This document shows, piece after piece, positions 9,025-10,764 of a stretch of DNA of 44,574 bases. This stretch comes from Chromatiales bacterium (GTDB lineage: Bacteria > Pseudomonadota > Gammaproteobacteria > SZUA-152), in contig JALSGT010000140.1 in NCBI GenBank assembly GCA_026982555.1, positions 1 through 44,574 on the forward strand, in the 5' to 3' direction. Position 1 is the stretch's first letter, and every line of letters starts with the position of its first letter. Under the pieces are notes generated by a model, which had not been told where the DNA came from, made no database searches, and was given only the letters and a program-made list of their open reading frames with translations. Position numbers and translations under genes: made by a program.

Positions 9025-9101
9025 GGCTATGTAGCTCAGCTGGTTAGAGCACATCACTCATAATGATGGGGTCCCCTGTTCGAATCAGGGCATAGCCACC
9101 A
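9025..9101 (+). tRNA. tRNA-Met (elongator, anticodon CAT)
   Basis: This is a 77-base cloverleaf with encoded CCA. The acceptor GGCTATG pairs with CATAGCC, the D-arm includes AGCTCAGCTGGTTAGAGC, and the anticodon stem CATCA/TGATG encloses CTCATAA. The T-arm is CCCTG-TTCGAAT-CAGGG. The sequence is of elongator-Met type rather than initiator, since the first acceptor pair is matched. Its 3' half is repeated at 10571-10620, which marks it as the integration target of the following islet. Confidence 0.96.
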
Positions 9102-9106
9102 TATTC
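9071..9106. repeat. attL-like direct repeat in the tRNA-Met 3' end
   Basis: These 36 bases run from the variable/T-arm of tRNA-Met through CCA and five bases beyond. They are repeated without mismatch in the same orientation at 10585-10620. A direct duplication of a tRNA 3' end with a short insert between copies is the usual trace of site-specific integration by a tyrosine recombinase. Confidence 0.75.
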
Positions 9107-9155
9107 CATTTTCACGACTTTTTCGGGCCCTCCAAAAACAGCCCGAAAATGCCCC

Positions 9156-9184
9156 GTGACCATCTCGTGACCATTCTGTGACCA
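9156..9184. repeat. Three helically phased GTGACCA repeats
   Basis: GTGACCA occurs at 9156-9162, 9167-9173 and 9178-9184. The 11-bp period places all three on one face of the helix. Lying about 50 bp from the attL-like repeat, they would suit arm-type binding sites of a tyrosine recombinase, though no such enzyme is encoded here. Confidence 0.5.
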
Positions 9185-9464
9185 CTTTTTAAAATCAGTG
9201 TTTTTTTGGCTCTTCAGAGAAATTAGTGGGTAAAAATATAGCGAATTTGAAGCAAGAGAGATCGTTTTTCCGAGAATGAGGGTAGAGCATCCTGCCCCGA
9301 CTCTGAGAAGATGGAAGTATCGAGCAACCATCAATCAGAGCAAAAGGAACAGGATCTTTTCCCTGAAATTTTTTTGGATAATCTTGAGGTTTGGGAGTTC
9401 ATTTGCCATAATCATTGCACGACTCACCCCTCGCGGAGTTATTCAGTTAATATCCGCTTGGGGC

Positions 9465-9496
9465 GAAAAGACCGCCGAAAGGCGGTCTTTTCATTT
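9465..9496 (+). terminator. Strong intrinsic terminator upstream of the NYN gene
   Basis: A perfect 12-bp inverted repeat (GAAAAGACCGCC / GGCGGTCTTTTC) closes a GAAA tetraloop and ends in a T-rich run. It ends 22 bases before the GTG start of the NYN gene, so it either insulates that gene from tRNA read-through or regulates it by attenuation. Confidence 0.8.
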
Positions 9497-9514
9497 CTGG
9501 GGAAAGGAACTTCT

Positions 9515-10201
9515 GTGAGAACGATAGTTTATATCGATGGGTACAATCTTTATTATGGCCGATTAAAACACTCAACCCATAAGTGGTTGGATGTCCACGA
9601 ACTCTTCTCGGGGTATATTCTCAAAGCCCAATCTCCCGAATCTACCATTCACAAAATCAAATATTTTACCGCGGATATCAGAGCCAAAATCGCCACTCAT
9701 GGGCAGGACGCGCAAAAAGCTCAGAACAGTTATCTCCGGGCCTTGGTTACCTTGTACCCAGATACCATAGAAATCATTAAGGGCTACCATTCCCTAGAAC
9801 GCGGGAGACTTCTCCGTTATAAGCAGCCGCCAGATAAGACAGATAGGGTTGATGTTTGGCGGCTGGAGGAGAAGCAAACGGATGTGAACATCGCATTGCA
9901 TGCATACAGGGATGTCATCCGAGGTGAGTGCGACCAGATTGTTATTGTGTCTAATGACACAGACCTTGAACCTGCGCTTCAAATGATACGTCAGGATGTC
10001 GGGTCAGCAATTAACATTGGCATTGTTATCCCAATTCCAAAGCCAACCCCTGGAAAAAAACACCGACCGTCAAATGCTGCATTGAGCAAGTATGCTGATT
10101 GGACTCGTCAATATATTTTGGATTCTGAGGTAGAATATTCTCAGTTGCCGAATCCCATACCAACAAAGAAAAAACCGATTCTGAGGCCAGATTACTGGTG
10201 A
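9515..10201 (+). CDS. NYN-domain (LabA/DUF88-like, PIN-fold) putative ribonuclease
   Basis: The 228-residue product has the NYN family hallmarks. The N-terminal VYIDGYNLYYG supplies the first acidic residue, an acidic DRVDVWRLEEKQTDVNIALH follows in mid-protein, and SNDTDLEPAL near residue 148 carries the metal-binding aspartates. NYN proteins are PIN-fold, metal-dependent and usually RNA-cleaving. The substrate here is unknown. The GTG at 9515 is preferred because it has GGAAAGGA 6 bases upstream and begins directly with the domain; the open frame further up runs through a terminator hairpin. It is the sole clear gene of the tRNA-Met islet, so a role in defence or RNA control is possible but not shown. 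Confidence 0.82.
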   Translation: MRTIVYIDGYNLYYGRLKHSTHKWLDVHELFSGYILKAQSPESTIHKIKYFTADIRAKIATHGQDAQKAQNSYLRALVTLYPDTIEIIKGYHSLERGRLLRYKQPPDKTDRVDVWRLEEKQTDVNIALHAYRDVIRGECDQIVIVSNDTDLEPALQMIRQDVGSAINIGIVIPIPKPTPGKKHRPSNAALSKYADWTRQYILDSEVEYSQLPNPIPTKKKPILRPDYW

Positions 10202-10764
10202 GCATGTAAGTGGTGCGCCAAGAAGTAACTGGCATAAATGATTATTGTCGATTGAAGCTGGGCCTGGTTATGGCGGATCGATATTGGCTGCTCAGGCAAT
10301 CATTAATCCGAATTGCAAGAATATTTGCTATCAAATTACCCGCGATGACTATGAGTAAGACTTGAGCGAAAGGGTTGTTTTGAGTGGCGTATGTTTGTGC
10401 CAATTTTGAGACAAGAACTCGTAAAAATACGTTGCGGGCTCAGCATTCCCGAAAAAATGATCCTAATTTACAGCAAGGTATCGCCAGATAACTTATTGAT
10501 ATTATGTGAGAATGTGCATTAGTGCCCAATGCGGCGACATTATGCTTCTTGAGAAGCAAGTAATATGAGCTCACTTATAATGATGTCCCCTGTTCGAATC
10601 AGGGCATAGCCACCATATTCTATTTTTACGGTTTTCCACGTTGCTTAAAACAGGGCGGAAGTTTGCCGTGGTCAGAGGGTAAATTGCAATGCAGTAGTGA
10701 AAAAACCTGCTGGATTTTGCCTTTCGCCGGAATGACAACAGAGTAGTTCTGGTAGAATGCCCCG
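10202..10764. other. Gene-free stretch between NYN gene and uvrD
   Basis: Apart from the tRNA-Met remnant at 10571-10620, this stretch shows one possible coding scrap at 10245-10358. In frame it reads AGPGYGGSILAAQAIINP before a TAA, looks protein-like and has no convincing start. Near 10707-10737 there is an inverted copy of a GTCATTCCGGCGAA-type repeat. No promoter or SOS box was recognised ahead of uvrD. Confidence 0.5.
10571..10620 (+). repeat. attR-like partial tRNA-Met (anticodon arm to CCA)
   Basis: This is a truncated tRNA-Met copy. The 36 bases at 10585-10620 are identical to 9071-9106. The preceding bases match the tRNA anticodon arm with one C-to-T change and two missing G residues. 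It lacks the acceptor 5' strand and D-arm, so it is not a functional tRNA. It is read as the displaced 3' end left by integration. Confidence 0.75.

Follow-up and report, generated by a model that had tools for sequence, protein, structure and literature searches.

NYN ribonucleases, HEC-09 proteins, type III toxin-antitoxin systems and integrase-less att-bracketed elements are already known separately. Type III loci consist of a single promoter, a repeat RNA, a rho-independent terminator and an RNase gene (PMC5086642; also PMC12373285). Among the described systems, ToxIN, CptIN and TenpIN are found on plasmids, chromosomes and prophages. In AbiF systems, the gene of a defence RNase, a HEPN protein, is preceded by a conserved antitoxin-like RNA (RF03085) and a terminator. 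Cis-mobilizable elements (CIMEs) are flanked by att-like repeats and contain no recombinase. HEC-09 (Hma-embedded candidate) is a candidate defence gene for which no function was found in the open-access literature, and its PADLOC model describes the protein only, with no RNA partner.

The window analyzed here is the whole 44,574-nucleotide contig JALSGT010000140.1 of a Chromatiales bacterium (assembly GCA_026982555.1). At positions 9071-10620 it contains a micro-islet, an insert that adjoins the 3' end of a tRNA-Met gene, has no integrase and carries an RNA-protein module of two parts as its functional cargo. Sequence comparisons suggest that this pair is a type III-like toxin-antitoxin module in which the RNA would be the antitoxin and the NYN (PIN-like) RNase the toxin, a reading to which we assign a probability of roughly 0.68.

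The islet encodes an intact NYN ribonuclease of the HEC-09 type

The NYN gene is intact and occupies positions 9515-10201 of the + strand, in a conserved frame that starts with a GTG at 9515 and encodes a protein of 228 amino acids, the proposed toxin. A start at 9311 was rejected because this frame reads through an insertion sequence remnant, the promoter and the RNA described below, and because the homologues start at 9515. The sole Pfam match of the protein is NYN (PF01936; E 7e-7, 30.2 bits vs a cut-off of 24.2), and PADLOC assigns it to HEC-09 (E 1.3e-28) with a profile match across the full model (positions 3-202 of 203). In an alignment of 45 sequences from 45 loci, the residues D8, N11, E118-E119-K120-Q121-T122-D123-V124-N125, D148 and D150 are invariant. 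The AlphaFold2 model of the protein has a pLDDT of 94.9, and the best PDB matches in Foldseek are the NYN structures 2qip and MARF1. The protein thus combines a domain above the Pfam cut-off, conserved acidic residues and the NYN fold, as expected for an NYN RNase. In a CRISPR-associated NYN RNase, the active-site aspartates are D13, D118 and D143, and a D13A substitution abolished cleavage (PMC11346440). The spacing of D8, D123 and D148 parallels that of these residues, and the active site is intact. The fold and the conserved aspartates are shared with both the CRISPR-associated and the MARF1 NYN RNases, for which, in contrast, a dedicated RNA partner is not described.

The homologues in L035, L139 and L145 contain stop codons within the gene, which shows that the module decays at some loci. 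In some plasmid records (L160, hits H48-H52), proteins of the family bear the annotation 6-hydroxy-3-succinoylpyridine 3-monooxygenase (HspA/NicB), apparently in error.

A conserved structured RNA precedes the NYN gene

A 75-nt structured RNA, the proposed antitoxin, lies upstream of the gene at 9419-9493 (+ strand), as supported by a covariance model, its fold and covariation. It is composed of a hairpin P1/P2 with a symmetric internal loop (9427-9463) and of P3, a 12-bp terminator hairpin with a U tract (9465-9492). A sigma70-like promoter, TTGAGG-N17-CATAAT, is located at 9384-9412 (+ strand), with an expected start at about 9419. Inspection of the 140-nt stretch preceding the gene in 80 homologues revealed a conserved element in nearly all cases. 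The covariance model, built from 34 of these 80 upstream sequences, detected the RNA immediately before the NYN gene in 78 of the 79 loci with upstream DNA, in addition to the window; the one homologue without a detectable RNA is L051. Two-sided changes occur in 17 of 25 pairs, and 94% of the cells are paired (100% for P3). The covariation score is 0.404, whereas shuffles give 0.233 +/- 0.010 and sliding of the partners gives no more than 0.123. The window RNA is predicted to fold at -40.6 kcal/mol (z-score -7.4), and when the best -10 boxes of the 79 loci are placed relative to the RNA 5' end, their distribution has its peak at exactly -12. No Rfam family matching the RNA was found in the window and 12 loci, and the RF03085 covariance model of the AbiF RNA gave no match in the same set.

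The original prediction had described an orphan nuclease behind a strong terminator. The terminator does exist, but it is not freestanding, being the 3' hairpin of the conserved RNA, and the term orphan has to be abandoned given the structured partner present at nearly all loci. Since this partner is dedicated to the nuclease, a toxin-antitoxin reading is better than that of a bare effector.

Several further elements were noticed in the course of these comparisons. A good copy of the RNA is present at L137:5101-5171 (minus strand; G289), where no NYN gene was detected; it lies between convergent frames, 1.3 kb from a tyrosine integrase, and is possibly an orphan antitoxin or a remnant. A match in G319 was rejected as a false match to the rpmG terminator. 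In a second NYN clade (L143, L144, L145 and L149; about 40% identity), a different hairpin-terminator element (CUACUACCCC...) takes the same upstream position, and in a third clade (L146, L150 and L151) a two-hairpin element with a terminator facing away, perhaps a divergent RNA, is found upstream of NYN. Other hairpin-terminator leaders are also frequent at this place, as judged by eye only, among the more distant NYN relatives from bacterial genomes and viral contigs.

Tandem RNA units and the type III layout

Two features of the type III layout can be read from the sequence, namely an RNA gene with its own promoter upstream of the putative toxin gene and a rho-independent terminator, P3, between the two. 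The tandem repeats of type III antitoxins are missing in the window, where the RNA is a single unit, and are encountered in relatives. On enterobacterial plasmids, tandem RNA hairpin units (three, or four to five varying between plasmids) are followed by a terminator and then by the nuclease. L162, whose protein shares 30% identity with that of the window, has four copies of a 33-nt hairpin unit, followed by the terminator and the NYN gene, and near-identical plasmids carry four or five 33-nt units (L193, L195 vs L194, L196), five of them in two cases. At about 45% identity, L152, L157 and L158 (the 4.1-kb plasmid p1_020031) contain tandem degenerate units; in L157 there are three, each predicted to form a hairpin resembling P1-internal loop-P2, and the first is weakly matched by the covariance model.

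These units bear directly on another explanation, in which an ordinary NYN RNase is regulated by the RNA as its cis-acting leader, in the manner of an attenuator or a riboswitch, and no toxin-antitoxin relation exists between the two. The position of the RNA just before the gene and the 12-bp terminator hairpin at its end speak for this explanation, and AbiF was first read in this way (PMC12373285). However, an attenuator predicts an anti-terminator, and the obvious one, formed by the P1 3' strand with the P3 5' strand, does not covary more than shuffled controls do (0.052 vs 0.041), and one anti-terminator pair is broken in 13 of the 34 sequences. Moreover, the hairpin is multiplied to three to five tandem units of variable copy number, as is typical of type III antitoxins and difficult to reconcile with a leader. 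We thus regard a cis-acting leader as unlikely. It has also to be considered that NYN and its RNA could form an RNA-guided or RNA-dependent effector instead of a toxin-antitoxin pair, since the RNA is strictly coupled to the nuclease and AbiF-ncRNA systems were proposed as Cas13 ancestors (PMC12373285). Yet the RNA is conserved along its whole length across genera and has no variable guide-like segment, making such an effector very improbable.

The type III-like reading leads to the following proposed mechanism. Most transcripts would stop at the terminator, so that the RNA would be in excess and could bind and inhibit the NYN nuclease, which would be made upon occasional read-through. If RNA synthesis stopped, because a phage took over the cell or the module was lost, the RNA would decay faster than the protein, and the freed nuclease would cut cellular RNA and halt the cell or the phage. 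Such addiction would preserve the module and would account for its being so often the sole thing left or carried between attachment-like repeats.

The RNA-NYN locus resembles ToxIN, CptIN and TenpIN in its succession of promoter, small structured RNA, rho-independent terminator and RNase gene, in the RNA repeats of some of its relatives and in its occurrence on plasmids, chromosomes and prophages. It differs from them by its proposed toxin, which is NYN (PIN-like) and not ToxN-like, and by the single 75-nt unit of the window RNA, which would inhibit the nuclease. Membership of these three families was rejected, as the protein has only Pfam NYN matches, a fold corresponding to NYN structures and no homology to ToxN, CptN or TenpN. 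With AbiF, the locus shares a defence-type arrangement of RNase gene, preceding RNA and terminator; however, both the protein and the RNA are different.

Distribution of the family

The family is present on 434 PLSDB plasmids, about half of them from Klebsiella and some only 3.5-5.4 kb in size. Two phage records of INPHARED also contain it, as do 70 loci of viral contigs; of these loci, 32 were scanned and the RNA was identified in 13, prophage contigs with the RNA before the NYN gene being among them. A defence role, as put forward in the original prediction, may be played by this HEC-09 candidate. At 6 of 12 sampled loci outside the islets, a neighbouring gene has a PADLOC match, some of these matches being weak.

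The tRNA-Met insertion site

The insertion site is an intact tRNA-Met gene (CAT; 9025-9101, + strand) identified by ARAGORN and by the Rfam tRNA family, and the order ychF-tRNA-Met is conserved in 8 congeners. The predicted 36-bp perfect direct repeat of the tRNA 3' end is real: 36 nt are exactly repeated at 9071-9106 and 10585-10620, within a 59-nt repeat of 88% identity that extends over 9063-9121 (attL-like) and 10577-10635 (attR-like), both on the + strand, with a start-to-start distance of 1,514 bp. The best ungapped flank score is 40, whereas 150 mismatched pairs of flanks never gave more than 14, and none of 151 control windows from the same loci (600-bp flanks) scored 17 or more. Homology of the right copy extends 5' to about 10566, near the anticodon arm, so that this copy corresponds to the 3' part of the tRNA. 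Its lack of the tRNA 5' half means that it is not a full tandem tRNA copy.

Within the repeat-bracketed segment, no recombinase or integrase frame is present in the ORF list, nor was an integrase detected within 8 kb of the islet with one seed profile; tyrosine recombinases are encoded elsewhere in this genome. Downstream of the tRNA, three GTGACCA repeats with an 11-bp spacing (9156, 9167 and 9178; 9156-9184, + strand) resemble integrase arm sites, and the region of this stretch also follows the tRNA in congener G002, with 92% identity. It is followed by a 148-bp end fragment of an ISL3-family insertion sequence (9208-9355), 99% identical to a sequence beside an ISL3 transposase gene in G000:C23; a longer copy of this insertion sequence is located at the end of contig C23. 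The fragment is a later insertion or a deletion remnant, and without it the islet would measure about 1.37 kb. A non-coding spacer containing no listed ORF (10202-10565) separates the NYN gene from the right repeat.

The NYN gene is absent from all 11 congeners searched and is not fixed at this site in relatives. Together with the intact nuclease gene and the missing integrase, this bears out the idea of an integrase-less, repeat-bracketed islet with a single nuclease. In the 8 congeners mentioned above, ychF-tRNA-Met is found without the NYN gene and the right flanks differ. The proposed search for an empty site revealed no site exactly rejoined at the 36-bp repeat in the genus; in every relative examined, ychF and uvrD belong to different contigs, which precludes its demonstration there. 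The left tail of the window resembles G002 and its right tail G009.

It could be argued that the islet is no insertion at all and that part of the tRNA region was duplicated in tandem long ago, as about 60 nt beyond the tRNA 3' end are also weakly repeated, making the duplicated stretch longer than a typical core. A duplication nevertheless fits poorly with the missing tRNA 5' half in the right copy, with the absence of the gene from the congeners and with the distinct affinities of the two tails, which would be expected if one of them had arrived with the element. We therefore consider it improbable. In another congener, G001, the same tRNA-Met is followed by an insert of about 150-180 bp, at the end of which 26 nt of the tRNA 3' end are repeated (L120:1278-1452).

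Similar micro-islets recur at other sites

Significant direct repeats within 600 bp on each side of the RNA-NYN module were found at 15 of 74 loci, the window included, vs 0 of 151 control windows of the same size. With 1.5-kb flanks, bracketing repeats were observed at 18 of 74 loci vs 1 of 142 controls. These modules represent roughly 12 independent sites, and several of the repeats are tRNA 3' parts. Thus, the minimal cassette is a real pattern recurring in other bacteria and not a one-off decay product. The spacing of the repeats clusters at 0.88-1.3 kb, with nothing else inside; few cases fall at 2.2-6.5 kb, and the next class, at 6.7-7.0 kb, includes integrase-bearing islands (L038 and L080) in which the module is at the end away from the integrase. 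The right repeat often begins 5-67 bp past the NYN stop codon.

The repeats derive from the 3' parts of tRNA-Arg (L050, spacing 1,210 bp), tRNA-Phe (L067, 1,154 bp) and a CAT tRNA (L059 and L061, about 945 bp), from the valS 3' end in three Psychrobacter genomes (1,039 bp), from other protein-gene 3' ends (L021 and L037), from a terminator (L046 and L047) and from the 5' end of a gene reading as aroB (L052). A repeat at L071 was rejected as an artefact of a truncated locus. In L050 and L067, short repeats reminiscent of integrase arm sites are found next to the tRNA and close to the opposite end, which brings to three the tRNA islets with such repeats. In the 80 loci and the window, an integrase was detected within 8 kb only in L034, L036, L038 and L080, using one seed profile.

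An empty site could be reconstructed for the valS islet. When its two flanks were joined in silico, the resulting sequence aligned without interruption over the junction in G386 (positions 13-600 of 600, 89% identity), and the rejoined site is present in at least 10 further Psychrobacter genomes, with a match to about position 420 (at least 11 genomes in all). The Psychrobacter valS 3' end is also a hotspot (L179-L186, L177, L178 and L189), with inserts of about 0.17-1.8 kb between partial valS copies that differ in content, for example a small membrane protein or non-coding DNA. As these other inserts indicate, small islets at gene ends are found beyond the NYN module.

The islets resemble CIMEs in having attL-like and attR-like repeats and no recombinase inside. 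In L059 (7655-14795), the RNA-NYN micro-islet and a 6-kb integrase-less island that contains metabolic genes occupy one tRNA end in tandem and share repeats, which is a further point of likeness. In contrast to CIMEs, however, the islet is about 1 kb long with one module, and its mobilization is putative.

How these islets arose can be explained in two ways. On the one hand, they could be pure decay products of different integrative elements that have lost all but the addictive module, so that no 1-kb unit would move. The islands of 6.7-7.0 kb that carry both integrase and module are consistent with such an origin, as are the repeats from many different sites, which indicate that no single integrase is involved. 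Conversely, the tight clustering of the spacing at 0.88-1.3 kb, the scarcity of cases from 2.2 to 6.5 kb, the frequent start of the right repeat so close to the stop codon and the arm-site-like repeats kept in three tRNA islets speak against it; we see pure decay as having about even odds. On the other hand, the cassette of about 1 kb, formed by the promoter, the RNA and NYN, could itself be mobile, as an integrase-less satellite that would use the recombinases of other elements at tRNA or gene ends and would be kept by addiction. That the RNA-NYN pair is a new type III-like family and that this cassette moves is, taken as a whole, a tentative and rather doubtful proposal. Both origins may occur, and we slightly prefer to see most islets as relics rather than as satellites moved by integrases in trans.

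Discussion

The open literature contains no description of the RNA partner, of its tandem-repeat form with an NYN protein or of the recurrent 1-kb islet, subscription papers and bioRxiv preprints being outside the scope of this search. Likewise, no co-mention of NYN with type III toxin-antitoxin systems, or of NYN with a ncRNA and defence, was found in the open literature, and a prior description elsewhere is possible.

A widespread and unexplained candidate defence gene, HEC-09, gains with this work a partner and a testable mechanism, and the labels of nicotine-pathway monooxygenase (HspA/NicB) in some database records would be corrected. The recurring insert of about 1 kb, bracketed by repeats and containing only the RNA-NYN module, makes the question of relic or satellite directly testable. 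Finally, if the proposed reading is true, RNA-antitoxin systems would have recruited a PIN-like RNase, meaning that the type III layout would have arisen with another toxin fold.
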